DNA of 34,036 bases from Caldifarciminota bacterium (GTDB taxonomy: Bacteria; Hydrothermota; Hydrothermia; B15-G9): assembly GCA_015489175.1 (NCBI GenBank), contig WGAI01000015.1:1-34036 (forward strand), in the 5' to 3' direction. Below, one piece after another: positions 9,945-34,036 of this stretch (position 1 is the stretch's first letter; each line of letters opens with the position of its first letter). Under the pieces are notes generated by a model. That model made no database searches, was not told the DNA's origin, and saw nothing but the letters and a program-made list of their open reading frames with translations. Both the position numbers and the translations under genes were made by a program.

Positions 9945-12900
9945 ATGAAAACATCATCAAAGCTAATGCTGGTAATGTCCCTCCTCGCAGGAGGACTATT
10001 TGCCGATGCCCAAAGGGTGCATTTGAACTGGAGCTGGCCGTTCACAGGTGCCTCATCAGGCGCGCTGGCGATAGACGCGTCAAGGCATTACGCATTTTAC
10101 TCAGCCGGAATGGGCATTGTCGGCGTTGACCTTTATAACTCGCCATATTCAATTGTTGGGCGGATTTTTACATCAAACACGGCCCTTGATATAAAAATAT
10201 CGCCCGATGGTAACACGCTTTTTGCTGCAGTTGGAGACAGTGGCATCGATATCTGGAACATCTCGGACACAGCAAACCCCGCAAGGATTGCAAGGATAAA
10301 CGACGGAAACATAGTCTTCGTGAAGGTTCACGGCAACTATTTATTCGCATCGGATACAAACTCAGCGAGCGTAAAAATTTACGACATATCGACGCTATCA
10401 TCCCCCTCTCTCGTCTCAACATTCGACCTCCCAAATGGTAAACCTGGTGAGATGGAGGTTGTAGGAACAGTCCTATATGTGGCGGGTTACACTGGAGGCA
10501 CTTATGTTTTTGACATCAGCAATGCCTCATCCCCGACACTTATTGCTACACTGAATCAGGCTGCATGGCACACATACATCGATGCCGCGAATAACCGACT
10601 TTTTACGGGCATTTTCAACGGGCCCGGGGTTGGCTCAACCATCAACTATTACGACATAACGAATCCCTCAATCCCGTCATTCCTGTTCAGTGAAACTATA
10701 AGTGCTTACCCCACTTTCCAGATGTGGGATTTTGCAGCGAGCAGCGATACGCTTTTCCTGATCTCATCAGGGAATGGTGTATCAACCCGTCAGATAATAT
10801 GGGAAGGTGACTCAACCATACCGCTTCTTTCAAACAGTGATGGGAGCCTTGATGATGCCAGAGGTATTGCACTTTTTGAAGATAAAGTTCTTGCAGTTTC
10901 GGACAATTACATATCAGGCACGCTTTACGAGCTCTCCAGGACCAATCTCAACATTTCCGATTCAGCTAATCCGATTGGCTGGATTTCTGATGTGTGGGTG
11001 AATGGCGATTACGCTTATGTAGCAGGTGCCGGAATTCTGACATTCCATATCGTCGGTGACACCATGGAGTTCATAGGCCAAACACTTAGCGAAACCATGT
11101 TCGATAGGCTCATGGTCAGAGGCTCATATCTCTTAGCCTCAAGCGGAGATTCGATTTACCTCTTCAGCATCGGTGCAAACCCGCAGTCGCCCAGTCTATT
11201 GGGAAAATTTTATTCTGGCGGCGATCTCGGCGGCTTCGATGCCGTTGTAACCCATAAAGGTCTTTATATCTACACAGCCGTAACAAATACAGCCGTGTTT
11301 TTTGTGTTTGATGCCTCAAATCCCTCATCGCCCACGATGCTCTACGATGTGCCTGTCGCTTACACCTCAAATGACATCAAGGTCATGAACGATCTTGCAT
11401 ATCTGGTGAGCAGTTATGGTGATAGGTTCATGGTTTACGATATAAACGACAGTTCTCAGGTTGCATCTATTTATTACGAAGACCCATTCGGCCTTGAGCT
11501 CAGAGGAAATTACGCCTATGTCGTGGGAAACCGCCCCGGAATTGTTGACATCAGCGACCCATCAAATCCGCACATAGTCGGTAATATCCTCTTTAACGGC
11601 AACTCGTGGACTGCATACGATGTTTGTCCATTTGATAGCGGTGCCGTGTTCATAGGTAACATTTACCTTTCTAACGGCTCAGGCTTTGTGATTGTGGATA
11701 TGAGGGATACATCGAACATCAGGACGCCGGGCTATCTACTTTATAACGGAGGATATGGCCGAGGAGTTTTCTTCAAAGATTACAAGATCTATGCTGCATT
11801 TTATGACCTTGGGCTTCACGCCTTTACAAGTGATTCGCTCCCACCACAGCCTGCACCAGTTGTCCTGGTTGAACCCACAGGTGGGCAATGGGCGCCAAGA
11901 AATGTCCATTTTGAATGGCAGGATACGACCGGCGTCACCGGAGCTTACTACATCCTGAAAGCCTATGGCTCATTCTACATCATTGATGATACGCTGACCA
12001 CCACTTATTTTGACACAGTCCTTACACAGAAAAGGAGATATTGGTGGTATGTGATCACTTATTACGCCCCCGGTTATGACGCAAGAACCTATACGACCTC
12101 ATTTTACCTCGACCCCGACCCACCGTTTGGATTTAATCTCCTATCCCCTGACAGCGGCGCGTCTATTTCTGATTCTATTGTCAGTTTCGACTGGTCAGAA
12201 GCACAGGATACATCGAGTGGCATGGGGCATTATCTTCTGCTCATTTCAAACGATTCTACTTTCGCGTCTTACGATTCGTTTGTCGTGGATACATCAGGCA
12301 TGAGCGTTGCGCTCGCCTCTTACGGCACATTTTACTGGAAAGTCATAGCCGTTGATTCGGCAGGCAATACGGCGGAGTCGAATGTCTGGAGCTTCACAAG
12401 GGAAATGCCTACGCCGTCGGTCCCCGGCCTCGTCTCACCGATTGGAGGAACATGGCTGAACGACACAACCGTAGCATTTTCATGGACGACAGGCGGCAAA
12501 AAGGTGAGTGACACTGGATTTATAGGTAAATTCAGACATAAAGGCGCCCTTCAAAAGGATCTGCTCGATGGCCCTACAAGCAAGGACACTGGAATTAAAT
12601 ACGACCTCAGGTTTGTTATCGAGATCCTGAGCGGGAACACGACGGTCGTCTACGACACGGTTGATACGAATTTTGTCGAAATTCCGCTTTCCGAAGGCAC
12701 TTACAGGTGGCATGTGAAGGCGTTTTATGTCGGTGCAGGTGCGTCTGACTGGTCACCAACCGATTCGTTTGGAGTTGACACCACGCCGCCGTCGGCTGTC
12801 TCGCTTACCTCGCCCGAAAACGGGGTTTATCTCAATTCCACAACCGTCCATTTCGACTGGGCTGATGCCGTTGATACCCTGAGCGGCGTAGCGAGTTACC

Positions 12901-13955
12901 TGTTGCTCGTGTCACAATCGCCAGATTTCTCATCCGCAGATTCGTTCTTCTGCACATCATCTGAGACGACGCTGACACTGGCTGAGATGTCTTACTGGTG
13001 GAGGGTTCAGGCGTTCGACCATGCTGGCAATGGTTCGGGTTTCACCGATGCATGGTCGTTCGAGGTGGATACGACCCATCCCGAAGCGCCTGCCCTTATC
13101 CTACCCGTTGGCGGGACATGGCTTTCGGACACTTCCGTGGTGCTCTCATGGTCAGCTGTTTCGTTCAAGAGCGGTAAACCTGCCATCAAAGCCGCACCCG
13201 TGAGCTATATTTTCGAGGTGAGTTCAAACGGCAGTGTCGTGGTAACCGATACGGTTGACACCAATGTGGCGCATGTAACTCTTTTCGAAGGCTTTTACAC
13301 ATGGCGGGTTATGGCGTTTGACGGTGCTGGAAACACATCGCCGTGGTCGCATGTCGATTCGTTCGGAATTGACATCACGCCGCCCGAAATCGACTCCATG
13401 ACCATCTGGAGTGACACAAGCTGGTTCTTCGGCCCCTACGAGGTGCACGCATGGATAACGGACAACCTTAGCGGCGTTCAAGATGTATGGCTCTTCTATT
13501 CCATCGATGGCCAGGGCTACGATTCCACGCAGATGAACGAGTCATACAGTGGCTGGATAGGCGAAATCCCGGCATTTTCGGATTCTGCGAACCACTCGGT
13601 TTCATACTTTGTCCGCGCCAACGACAGCTCACAGCCGCCAAATCACAGCCTGTCTGACACAGTCTCGTTCGAGGTCACATCCATCGAAGAGGGAAACATT
13701 GATCCGTCGGTGTATGCCGTTTCTCTCAGATCCACGGTGGCATCAGAAATCGTCTTTGAGGTTAAAACGCCGTCTTCGACGCCATACAGGCTGGAGATCT
13801 ACTCGACGGACGGACGACTTGTCGGTCTGAAAACCGGGCATCTGAATAGGGGATACAGCAGCCTCAGTGTGAATTTGAGCACAAACGGCGTTTACATGGC
13901 AGTTTTGAGAACGAAATTCGGAACCGAGATTCGCAAGCTTGTGATTTTAAAATAG
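9945..13955 (+). CDS. Large secreted protein: LVIVD-like beta-propeller repeats, FN3-like repeats, C-terminal T9SS-type sorting tail
   Basis: Signal peptide; recurrent VDISDPSNPHIVG-type segments; repeated FDWSEAQDTSSGMGHYLLLIS / FDWADAVDTLSGVASYLLLVS; C-terminus LEIYSTDGRLVG...YMAVLRTKFGTEIRKLVILK; AGGAGGTG RBS. Confidence 0.8.
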   Translation: MKTSSKLMLVMSLLAGGLFADAQRVHLNWSWPFTGASSGALAIDASRHYAFYSAGMGIVGVDLYNSPYSIVGRIFTSNTALDIKISPDGNTLFAAVGDSGIDIWNISDTANPARIARINDGNIVFVKVHGNYLFASDTNSASVKIYDISTLSSPSLVSTFDLPNGKPGEMEVVGTVLYVAGYTGGTYVFDISNASSPTLIATLNQAAWHTYIDAANNRLFTGIFNGPGVGSTINYYDITNPSIPSFLFSETISAYPTFQMWDFAASSDTLFLISSGNGVSTRQIIWEGDSTIPLLSNSDGSLDDARGIALFEDKVLAVSDNYISGTLYELSRTNLNISDSANPIGWISDVWVNGDYAYVAGAGILTFHIVGDTMEFIGQTLSETMFDRLMVRGSYLLASSGDSIYLFSIGANPQSPSLLGKFYSGGDLGGFDAVVTHKGLYIYTAVTNTAVFFVFDASNPSSPTMLYDVPVAYTSNDIKVMNDLAYLVSSYGDRFMVYDINDSSQVASIYYEDPFGLELRGNYAYVVGNRPGIVDISDPSNPHIVGNILFNGNSWTAYDVCPFDSGAVFIGNIYLSNGSGFVIVDMRDTSNIRTPGYLLYNGGYGRGVFFKDYKIYAAFYDLGLHAFTSDSLPPQPAPVVLVEPTGGQWAPRNVHFEWQDTTGVTGAYYILKAYGSFYIIDDTLTTTYFDTVLTQKRRYWWYVITYYAPGYDARTYTTSFYLDPDPPFGFNLLSPDSGASISDSIVSFDWSEAQDTSSGMGHYLLLISNDSTFASYDSFVVDTSGMSVALASYGTFYWKVIAVDSAGNTAESNVWSFTREMPTPSVPGLVSPIGGTWLNDTTVAFSWTTGGKKVSDTGFIGKFRHKGALQKDLLDGPTSKDTGIKYDLRFVIEILSGNTTVVYDTVDTNFVEIPLSEGTYRWHVKAFYVGAGASDWSPTDSFGVDTTPPSAVSLTSPENGVYLNSTTVHFDWADAVDTLSGVASYLLLVSQSPDFSSADSFFCTSSETTLTLAEMSYWWRVQAFDHAGNGSGFTDAWSFEVDTTHPEAPALILPVGGTWLSDTSVVLSWSAVSFKSGKPAIKAAPVSYIFEVSSNGSVVVTDTVDTNVAHVTLFEGFYTWRVMAFDGAGNTSPWSHVDSFGIDITPPEIDSMTIWSDTSWFFGPYEVHAWITDNLSGVQDVWLFYSIDGQGYDSTQMNESYSGWIGEIPAFSDSANHSVSYFVRANDSSQPPNHSLSDTVSFEVTSIEEGNIDPSVYAVSLRSTVASEIVFEVKTPSSTPYRLEIYSTDGRLVGLKTGHLNRGYSSLSVNLSTNGVYMAVLRTKFGTEIRKLVILK

Positions 13956-31097: not shown

Positions 31098-31124
31098 GGC
31101 GGGGCGGCCGAAGGCCGCCCCGCC
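31098..31124. terminator. Perfect 12-bp GC hairpin between convergent genes
   Basis: GGCGGGGCGGCC-GAA-GGCCGCCCCGCC between comF (+) and the sorting-domain gene (-). Confidence 0.6.
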
Positions 31125-31130
31125 TCAGCT

Positions 31131-31649
31131 TTACCTCACAACTACAAGCTTTCTGGTTATGTCACGACCAGCAGCTCGAAATCGAACAACATACACCCCG
31201 GAAGTCACACGCGTGCCTGAATTTGAGCGACCGTTCCAAACCACACGATGGTTGCCCGCGCGGTATGTCCCTCTCGTCTCCCAGACCAATCTGCCGCTGA
31301 TGTCGATGACCTGGATATCGACCTCGCCCTTTTGCGGCAAAGTGAACTTTATCTCTGTGTTCCCTGCGGAAGGGTTTGGGCTGAGCGGTAGGAACTTGAA
31401 CACATAGGGAGCGGTGCCAGAACCTTCCTCTATGCTCACTCTGATTGCCCCGTAAGGCATACCTGATGTGATTTTGAACCCGCTGCCTGCGCTCACTCCG
31501 GAGACACTGACGCCTGTAACCCCGACGAGGCTATACGATGGGGATAGCGAGATTCCGCCTCCGGCGGTCACCTGCCCAAAGTTGAGCACATAGCCCGTCT
31601 GCCCCCACAAAATCGCCGGAACCATGAGAAAAAGCAGCTTCCTGATCAT
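31131..31649 (-). CDS. Small secreted protein dominated by a T9SS type A-like C-terminal sorting domain
   Basis: Signal peptide; YVFKFLPLSPNPSAGNTEIKFTLPQKGEVDIQVIDISGRLV...SGVYVVRFRAAGRDITRKLVVVR; ATGA overlap with the upstream fibre gene. Confidence 0.8.
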   Translation of the reverse strand: MIRKLLFLMVPAILWGQTGYVLNFGQVTAGGGISLSPSYSLVGVTGVSVSGVSAGSGFKITSGMPYGAIRVSIEEGSGTAPYVFKFLPLSPNPSAGNTEIKFTLPQKGEVDIQVIDISGRLVWETRGTYRAGNHRVVWNGRSNSGTRVTSGVYVVRFRAAGRDITRKLVVVR

Positions 31650-34036
31650 TGTCCACTGCTCCGTTCAATTCTATCGAGCCTTTGTTTAAGCTGTTCGATC
31701 TCAGCCTGTTGTGCCTTTATGGCCTCGATCAAAATCGGGACCAGTTTTGAGTAATCGACGCCTTCGACCTTGCCATCCGGCCCATAGATCACAGCCTGAG
31801 GTGCAACCTTAGCCACTTCTTCAGCCGGCACACCTATGTCCTGACCGTCGGCTGTGGAATAAGTTTTTCCCTCAAGCTGCTTGACCTTGTCAACGGCGTT
31901 ATCGACCTTTTGAGAGACAGCCGTGCCTTCAGGAGCAGGTTTCTGGTAAAATCCTTTGGAAGACCCAATCGTGCCGTTCACATAGAGAGCATTCGATGTG
32001 GCAAACGAGTTGGTGGCCACAAACACATGCCCTTTGCCGTCCCAGTTGAACACTGCCACACTGTCTGTATCAGCCTGTGCGTGATAGCCGAACGCAAGAG
32101 AGAATTTTCCATTGGCCTGATTATACATACCTCCCGGCACCGAGGAGTAACTCCCACTGGCCGTGTTGGTATAGCCGCCAGCTATGACCGATTTTGAGCC
32201 ATAAGCACGGTTGTAATATCCGCCTCCTACAAATGACTTATCACCTGATGCCTCGTTATACATGCCGCTTCCAACAAAAGAGTAATTTCCGGATACCATG
32301 TTGCCAAAACCTGCACCTATGAACGAACCTGAAGACGAGATCGTGTCTTTCGCACCTGTCACAATTGCCGAATAAGTTTCGGTTACAGCATTTTGACTAC
32401 CACTTCCTATGAAAGAATACCCTGCTGTAATGCTGTTGCTGTCACCTGTGGCGATAAAGGAAAAACTATCCGCCATAAATATGGTATCTCCGTAGCCGGT
32501 AATTATCGCCGAGTTGTTTCCTAAGATGTAATTGATAGTACCGCTGCCTATAAAGCTATTATAAGAGGCTTCGATGTAGTTGTAAGTCCCCGATCCTATG
32601 AAAGAGTTGCTTGAAGGAGTTGCTGACATGTATGTAGAGATTATCCCGTTCCATTCGCCTCCAACAATCACATTCCCATGGCCATACATTCCGCCTAATT
32701 CGTTACTCAATATAATGTTATTATAGCCGCCGCCTATAAAAGATGAGGTGTCATAAATGATGCGATTGTTGAGACCGCCAGCTATCACGGAGTAATTGCT
32801 ATGGTCAAGCGTGTCATAACTGCCAGCGAAAATGCCACCGTAGTTTGAATATTGGATGAGGTTTGATAGCCCATTTCCGATCACAGAGTTGAGCGTGAAT
32901 AACATGCCGTTCTGACTGCCTCCACCGATGGAACTGAACGAAGATGTATAAACATAGTTGTCGGAGCCACCAGCTATTGTCAGCAAATTGCCTGATATCT
33001 GGTTGTTAATTCCTGAGACGACGGAGGAAGCATTACCTCTGGCCGAATTGTTGTATCCGCTCAAAACAGCGGCATACTTGTAATTGGATCCATCGGTTCC
33101 TGTCACCGATCTGAATCCAAGATTAACATGTGTCCACGCCGAATCCCCATAGAGCGTATCGCCTGCATCGAGGGCTATGCCGTAGTGATCAACCGGGAAC
33201 ATAATGTTTCCAATTGTATGCCATGGGCTTGGAGTATAGTCAGCTACTGAGTCGGCTATGCTGGCGTATGATGCGGTATCGGCATAGATGGCAAATATGG
33301 CCTGGCCAGTGTATTGAGAGGTGTCAGCATAAACCGTGTGATGTGATTCTATGGCCGTGTCTGAGTTCACCGAGTGAGAAGCGGCGGCGGCGTAGTTGGC
33401 TGTGTCCGCAGTGGTCGCGAACACCGAAAGGGCTGCAGTATCTGAATTGAAAGCACGGTGGGCGTAGTATGCTGTGTCCGATGTGACGGCATGGCCAGCA
33501 TTTGACGCATAGTTCGCAGTATCCGCCTGTGTCGCATGCTCGACATTTCCGGCGTTCGAGGCGTAGCCTGCTGTGTCGGATGTCACTGCGTGGCCAGCAT
33601 TTGACGCATAGCTCGCGGTATCCGCCTGAGTCGCATGCTCGACATTGGCGGCATTTGAGGCGTAACCAGCCGTGTCGGAAGTGACTGCGTGGCCGGCACT
33701 TGACGCATAGCTCGCAGTGTCCGCCTGTGTCGCATGCTCGACATTTCCGGCGTTCGTCGCATAACCTGCTGTGTCGGATGTCACTGCATGGCCGGCACTT
33801 GACGCATAGCTCGCAGTGTCCGCCTGTGTCGCATGCTCAACATTTCCGGCGTTCGTCGCATAACCTGCTGTGTCCGAAGTTACTGCGTGGCCGGCACTTG
33901 ACGCATAGCTCGCAGTATCCGCCTGAGTCGCATGCTCGACATTTCCGGCGTTCGTCGCATAACCTGCTGTGTCGGATGTCACTGCGTGGCCGGCACTTGA
34001 CGCATAGCTCGCAGTATCCGCCTGTGTCGCATGCTC
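31646..34036 (-). CDS. Partial (5' end outside window) fibre/adhesin-like protein: tandem repeat stalk, YadA-like head repeats, S74-like C-terminal region with coiled coil
   Basis: Frame stays open to base 34036 (EHATQADTASYASSAGHAVTSDTA...); repeated SxIGGGxxN motifs; C-terminus GVPAEEVAKVAPQAVIYGPDGKVEGVDYSKLVPILIEAIKAQQAEIEQLKQRLDRIE. Confidence 0.8.
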   Translation of the reverse strand, partial: EHATQADTASYASSAGHAVTSDTAGYATNAGNVEHATQADTASYASSAGHAVTSDTAGYATNAGNVEHATQADTASYASSAGHAVTSDTAGYATNAGNVEHATQADTASYASSAGHAVTSDTAGYASNAANVEHATQADTASYASNAGHAVTSDTAGYASNAGNVEHATQADTANYASNAGHAVTSDTAYYAHRAFNSDTAALSVFATTADTANYAAAASHSVNSDTAIESHHTVYADTSQYTGQAIFAIYADTASYASIADSVADYTPSPWHTIGNIMFPVDHYGIALDAGDTLYGDSAWTHVNLGFRSVTGTDGSNYKYAAVLSGYNNSARGNASSVVSGINNQISGNLLTIAGGSDNYVYTSSFSSIGGGSQNGMLFTLNSVIGNGLSNLIQYSNYGGIFAGSYDTLDHSNYSVIAGGLNNRIIYDTSSFIGGGYNNIILSNELGGMYGHGNVIVGGEWNGIISTYMSATPSSNSFIGSGTYNYIEASYNSFIGSGTINYILGNNSAIITGYGDTIFMADSFSFIATGDSNSITAGYSFIGSGSQNAVTETYSAIVTGAKDTISSSGSFIGAGFGNMVSGNYSFVGSGMYNEASGDKSFVGGGYYNRAYGSKSVIAGGYTNTASGSYSSVPGGMYNQANGKFSLAFGYHAQADTDSVAVFNWDGKGHVFVATNSFATSNALYVNGTIGSSKGFYQKPAPEGTAVSQKVDNAVDKVKQLEGKTYSTADGQDIGVPAEEVAKVAPQAVIYGPDGKVEGVDYSKLVPILIEAIKAQQAEIEQLKQRLDRIERSSGQ
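33490..34036 (-). repeat. 99-bp in-frame tandem repeat array (33 aa unit), cut by the window edge
   Basis: GTCGCATGCT (plus strand) recurs at 33531, 33630, 33729, 33828, 33927 and 34026, exactly 99 nt apart. Confidence 0.95.

Follow-up and report, generated by a model that had tools for sequence, protein, structure and literature searches.

MAT-type fibres are the adhesins by which Bdellovibrio recognises its prey, and they have homologues across many uncultured phyla. According to the available text of Caulton 2024 (PMC10769870), MAT fibres comprise a signal peptide, a beta domain of ~130 aa, a long trimeric fibre and a variable tip, S74 domains included, with the conserved base at the N-terminus and the tip at the C-terminus. 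The same text reports that Bdellovibrio MATs do reach the surface and states that the surface element bound by their N-domain is unidentified. Cargo of the T9SS is described, in the available text of PMC8545088, as invariably carrying its own CTD, which is a precedent against transport in trans, and in Porphyromonas the sorting domain is removed by PorU (PMC5445135).

Here we describe a fibre gene and a small partner gene at the right end of a window of 34,036 nucleotides, the whole stretch of DNA that we analysed, which is an entire contig (C15) of a WOR-3 (Stahlbacteria-type) bacterium with a genome of 2.06 Mb in 77 contigs. The nearest named relative of the fibre gene lies on a contig recorded as 'candidate division WOR-3 bacterium' (L099). 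Neither the type of fibre nor the partner's sorting domain is new in kind. In the literature searched, which covered few subscription journals and no preprints, we found no description of a MAT-partner pairing, of a T9SS signal acting in trans, of T9SS export without a CTD or of a T9SS in WOR-3.

Architecture of the fibre and its small partner

Both genes are convergent with ftsK- and comF-type genes and share a stop/start overlap (Table 1). The hairpin directly behind the small gene is consistent with a two-gene transcription unit, and a look at the neighbours of the pair within this window turned up neither another export signal nor a secretion gene. Elsewhere in the window, positions 9945-13955 (+) encode a 1336-aa protein with LVIVD repeats, an Ig-like domain and a sub-threshold sorting tail, probably a large T9SS cargo.

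Table 1. Positions of the two genes and their parts in the window
Feature	Position	Strand	Details and basis
Terminator-like hairpin directly behind the small gene	31098-31124	(-)	12 G-C pairs; strong stem, weak T tail
Small partner gene, 172 aa, ATG start	31131-31649	(-)	Codes for the three partner segments below
T9SS type A sorting domain, residues 90-170	31140-31382	(-)	TIGR04183 + PF18962; AF2 pLDDT >90 over most
Partner module, about residues 17-72 (~55 aa, glycine-rich)	31434-31601	(-)	GGG..S.Y..G..G...GM/FW pattern; alignments A1, A6, A7
Partner signal peptide, about residues 1-16, MIRKLLFLMVPAILWG	31602-31649	(-)	Hydrophobic stretch; helix in AF2 model
Stop/start overlap ATGA of the fibre and partner genes	31646-31649	(-)	Identical 4-bp overlap in L057, L058, L060, L061
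Fibre gene, 3' part, 796 aa, open at contig end	31646-34036	(-)	5' part at C27 end, L023:16693-17421
C-terminal coiled-coil-like helix EAIKAQQAEIEQLKQRLDRIERSSGQ	31649-31774	(-)	Sequence; PHROG tail-fibre profiles align across the helix
S74-like chaperone region, residues 709-749	31790-31912	(-)	PF13884, 22.7 bits vs cut-off 22 (marginal)
Beta-roll head, SxIGGGxxN-like motif repeats, about residues 350-645	32102-32989	(-)	Pfam + motif count
Stalk: 99-bp tandem repeats, 33-aa HATQADTASYASSAGHAVTSDTAGYATNAGNVE units, 5.7 copies	33470-34036	(-)	Contig end inside array

An earlier note, made from the letters of this DNA, had described the ATGA overlap, a repeat stalk, a coiled-coil-like C-terminus and the lack of a sorting tail on the large ORF, and all four are confirmed, as is the observation as a whole. 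The head carries 13 motifs of the [IVFA]-x-x-G-xx-[NDTA] type against a mean of 1.1 and a maximum of 7 in 1000 shuffles, with spacings of mostly 15-16 residues or multiples thereof, and the S74-like region passes its Pfam cut-off marginally. The YadA_head model, however, has no match in the window fibre protein, and Pfam instead assigns the head to LbR_Ice_bind (36.2 bits against a cut-off of 30). The S[DS]xxxK catalytic Ser-Lys motif of S74 is absent from residues 651-796, which suggests that the S74-like chaperone of this clade is probably not cleaved off. The motif is missing from the S74-like domains of this clade (window, L057, L059) and, judged by eye, kept in distant homologues (L072, L073, L088). 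The C-terminal tip is variable, being S74-like in the window and S74 or another end in relatives. Searches with Pfam and TIGR04183 gave no T9SS sorting domain on the window fibre.

The fibre ORF is broken at its 5' end by the contig end, within the 99-bp repeat array. This repeat occurs at only two sites of the genome, the end of C15 and the end of a second contig, C27, and the latter bears an ORF with a signal peptide, an N-terminal domain (N-domain; PHTINYQGYLT...VSVGYSFRA) and the same 33-aa repeats, running off the contig. No exact overlap joins C27 to C15, as the longest common ends are 20-23 bp and the gap falls within the repeat array; we link the two contigs because the repeat is found nowhere else in the genome and because the gene front is intact in a genome of the same genus. 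There, a single contig (L056/L099) spans the gene from the signal peptide through N-domain, repeats and head into the S74 region, most of which it includes, and the fibre is 91% identical to the window protein over the C-terminal part. The front adds a signal peptide and a beta domain of ~110 aa to the window fibre. With this front seen at C27 and intact in the same-genus contig, the complete fibre starts with a Sec signal peptide and ends without a sorting tail. The earlier note had taken the fibre to lack an export signal of its own, which remains true of the T9SS sorting tail and fails for Sec, since the signal peptide stands at the true N-terminus on C27. The order of stalk, head and chaperone, read there as an inverted autotransporter layout, is the normal one for MAT fibres, with an N-terminal base and a C-terminal tip (PMC10769870, available text).

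The N-domain appears to be distantly homologous to the N-domain of Bdellovibrio MAT fibres. All 26 relatives have an N-domain that matches NCBIfam NF053851 (Bdello_MAT_N), at best with E 9e-10. The C27 N-domain scores 22.8 bits against the 60-bit cut-off of this Bdellovibrio-named model; we use the term MAT-like for the fibre without assigning it to the Bdellovibrio subfamily. The AF2 model of the N-domain has seven strands with a core pLDDT of 92-98. We found no significantly similar solved structure in PDB by sequence or by fold, a best match to a viral structure library that was weak (7e-4, TM-score <0.5), and no N-domain in a plasmid collection. The fibre is presumably a trimer.

The partner has the composition given in the earlier note, namely a signal peptide, about 60 residues and a T9SS sorting domain, the last scoring 47.6 bits with TIGR04183 (cut-off 23) and 33.1 with PF18962 (cut-off 27). 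The segment between them, hereafter the module, is the part of the partner that is common to fibre partners of other phyla (alignments A1, A6, A7). These ~55-60 residues match no Pfam family and resemble no solved structure, and the module folded alone reaches an AF2 pLDDT of <50 from a shallow alignment. Across the genome, 38 places resemble the small protein, nearly all within the stretch of the sorting domain.

Separate profile searches of this genome returned exactly two N-domains and two modules. The second MAT-like fibre is divided between the ends of two further contigs, C47 (L180:1252-2511) and C77 (L024:7071-8397). In it, DSIDP/INFSGPI repeats replace the YadA-like head, and it adjoins its own 183-aa gene of module and sorting domain.

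Pairing of fibre and partner within the WOR-3 phylum

Eight relatives, from genus to class level, have 3' flanks that can be read (G002, G003, G005, G007, G008, G009, G014 and G032). In all eight the small gene lies directly downstream of the fibre gene, with a gene overlap of 1-4 bp in six of them. The order is reversed in the more distant L071, L063, L079 and L088, where the partner gene precedes the fibre gene; in L071 the two again overlap by 4 bp.

To describe the association in 147 genomes of the WOR-3 phylum, the small protein was split into module and sorting domain, and module and N-domain were searched separately. Both occur in 65 genomes and neither in 78, with two genomes having the module only and two the N-domain only; in the latter two, the gene meets a contig break or the partner has diverged. 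Since related genomes are not independent, labels were shuffled inside each family, using the 100 genomes to which a family was assigned. The observed concordance of 97 was reached in none of 20,000 shuffles, which gave at most 93. For 69 modules, a listed N-domain is at most 5 kb away, and in every case module and N-domain share a strand. No single-protein fusion of module and N-domain (Rosetta stone) was found. N-domains exceed modules in some genomes (15 vs 1 in G108, 11 vs 4 in G138, 6 vs 1 in G113), so the pairing is not strictly 1:1, and one partner may serve several fibres or some fibres may use another partner.

On this genomic evidence, the two genes form a conserved unit, and their association is genuine and widespread. 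The earlier note had named two findings that would speak against coupling, namely homologues that regularly lack the small neighbour and a complete large protein with its own anchor or sorting domain. All eight relatives named above have the neighbour, further out the association is strong, if not strictly 1:1, and no anchor or sorting domain was found on the complete protein.

Exchangeable tails of the module in other phyla

Contigs were also scanned with the N-domain, using alignment A3 because A2 was too diverse. The scan gave 80 loci, by their record names from WOR-3, Zixibacteria, Nitrospirota, Krumholzi-, Latesci-, Eisen- and Ignavibacteria, KSB1, Proteobacteria and others. The module lies at most 300 bp from the fibre at 35 of the 80 loci; at 34, several but not all of them at contig ends, the module profile did not find it. 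Every module gene at these loci is on the strand of its fibre (48/48). In 148 Nitrospirota genomes, three of the four module matches fall in the seven genomes with an N-domain, each close to it (hypergeometric p 2.6e-4). A hydrophobic signal segment is present in 75 of the 76 fibres with a start, and none of the 80 homologues carries a sorting domain.

What follows the module differs by lineage: a sorting domain, dockerin type I, Kelch, FG-GAP, DUF5648 or undescribed sequence. The genome of the window encodes SprA on contig C60 (481.6 bits against a cut-off of 200). This SprA is divergent, with a 1839-aa frame (C60:20352-24152), and represents a T9SS outside Bacteroidota. Across the compared genomes, SprA is present in 23 of 25 with a sorting-domain partner versus 6 of 16 whose partner ends differently (Fisher p 3e-4); in one of these six the match is weak. 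Zixibacteria and KSB1 have SprA, yet their partners end in dockerin or other tails. At two Zixibacteria loci (L144, L159), similar genes of module and dockerin stand on both sides of the fibre, with SprA present, an arrangement that suggests a cohesin-dockerin attachment route.

The pairing persists without SprA in Nitrospirota and in Beta- and Gammaproteobacteria, so the T9SS cannot always be needed for fibre export. The partner could accordingly be a surface anchor only, exported separately by the T9SS, with the fibre crossing the outer membrane in some other way and its N-domain docking afterwards, as might also be expected from Bdellovibrio MATs, which reach the surface while their surface element is stated to be unidentified (PMC10769870, available text). 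We consider this unlikely, though still a serious contender, given that this window showed no other export signal or secretion gene beside the pair and that the coupled ATGA overlap in T9SS lineages suggests joint production.

Another reading makes the partner a periplasmic or surface assembly factor, or a cap, whose sorting domain merely exports the partner itself and which does not hold the fibre. The Kelch, FG-GAP and DUF5648 domains of some partners are enzyme- or binding-like and not necessarily anchors, as such a role would allow. Against this, the two most frequent of the exchangeable tails, the T9SS sorting domain and dockerin, serve attachment or export, and the presence of the sorting tail follows that of the T9SS, which makes this reading improbable. 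That the two genes are adjacent by chance or through shared operon ancestry and functionally unlinked is highly improbable even though the evidence for the pair is genomic throughout, as their co-occurrence withstands shuffling inside families, is seen again in several phyla and always places both on the same strand (48/48).

Proposed mechanism and comparison with known systems

We favour, as reasonably probable, a two-gene fibre system in which the module of the partner binds the N-domain and the sorting domain brings partner and fibre to SprA and the surface. The large gene would encode a MAT-like fibre with a Sec signal peptide, an N-terminal beta domain as base, a stalk of ADTA repeats, a beta-roll head and an S74-like folding tip, and the small gene a dedicated partner whose ~55-residue module binds the N-domain of the fibre. 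Heads, stalks and tips vary while N-domain and module stay constant, from which we infer that these two are in contact. The T9SS sorting domain of the partner would then direct either the complex or the receptor by itself to the translocon, SprA, and on to the outside of the cell. Should a sortase of the PorU type cut off the sorting domain there, as PorU does in Porphyromonas, only the module would be left, which suits a surface peg holding the base of the fibre. In lineages without T9SS, dockerin or other tails on the same module would do the attaching, with the contact between module and N-domain as the constant element. Points against this reading are the surplus of N-domains over modules in some genomes, the 34 loci at which the module profile found nothing, the SprA-bearing Zixibacteria and KSB1 genomes whose partners have other tails, the low AF2 confidence of the module and the published description of T9SS cargo as always having its own CTD. 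Binding between the two proteins, trimer formation, transport in trans and surface attachment are proposed here on genomic evidence. The earlier note's suggestion that the small protein might anchor, cap or route a fibre is, given the conserved pairing, the best reading of the locus.

More tentatively, and with distinctly less confidence, the module may be a general surface receptor of the MAT N-domain across phyla, with the sorting signal acting in trans in T9SS bacteria and the folded fibre passing SprA in complex with its partner, which would be the first piggyback export by a T9SS. If the T9SS tail does act in trans, the rule that every T9SS cargo has its own sorting domain would be broken. 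With its near-exceptionless co-occurrence in one phylum, its recurrence elsewhere and a tail fitted to the lineage, the module is a testable candidate for holding the MAT base.

Several known systems share parts with this pair. The ~70-80 N-terminal residues of the CPR-type pilus protein PamT (NCBIfam NF058579), covering signal peptide and module, align with partners from other phyla, whose C-terminal part is different. NF058579 matches 11 of 20 modules (best whole-protein E 5e-9, L137) and does not match the window partner; the best score among relatives is 35.9 bits against a cut-off of 240 bits, and the module would correspond at most to the N-terminal stretch of PamT. The partner modules of Nitrospirota and proteobacteria (L137, L145, L160) resemble CPR_pilus_PamT, a hint of a link to a pilus system of Patescibacteria. 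The literature search described above yielded no publication on PamT.

Phage tail fibres with an S74 chaperone (PHROG 5668, 1330) align with the C-terminal 80-110 residues of the window fibre (E 1e-16). Unlike them, the window fibre has a signal peptide, a MAT-like N-domain and a chromosomal site beside ftsK/comF-type genes, and no phage genes were recognised alongside the locus. A prophage tail fibre was rejected as its identity, since signal peptide and neighbourhood speak against it. With type Vc trimeric autotransporter adhesins of the YadA type, the fibre shares beta-roll head motifs and coiled-coil segments; in contrast to them, its conserved base is N-terminal, its C-terminus is S74-like and Pfam finds no C-terminal YadA-type membrane anchor, for which reason a trimeric autotransporter identity was rejected.

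In layout the fibre is like the MAT fibres of Bdellovibrio bacteriovorus, in which a signal peptide is directly followed by a beta-rich N-domain (~110-130 aa), a long repeat fibre and a variable tip. The window fibre differs in its stalk of ADTA repeats, in its YadA-like beta-roll head and in being encoded with a dedicated small partner; no such partner is described in the available main text of Caulton et al. The partner in turn resembles T9SS type A cargo (TIGR04183/PF18962) in combining a Sec signal peptide with a sorting domain in a genome that has SprA. It departs from such cargo in that its only other part is the ~55-aa module, neither enzyme nor adhesin, and in apparently acting for another protein, one with no sorting domain of its own.
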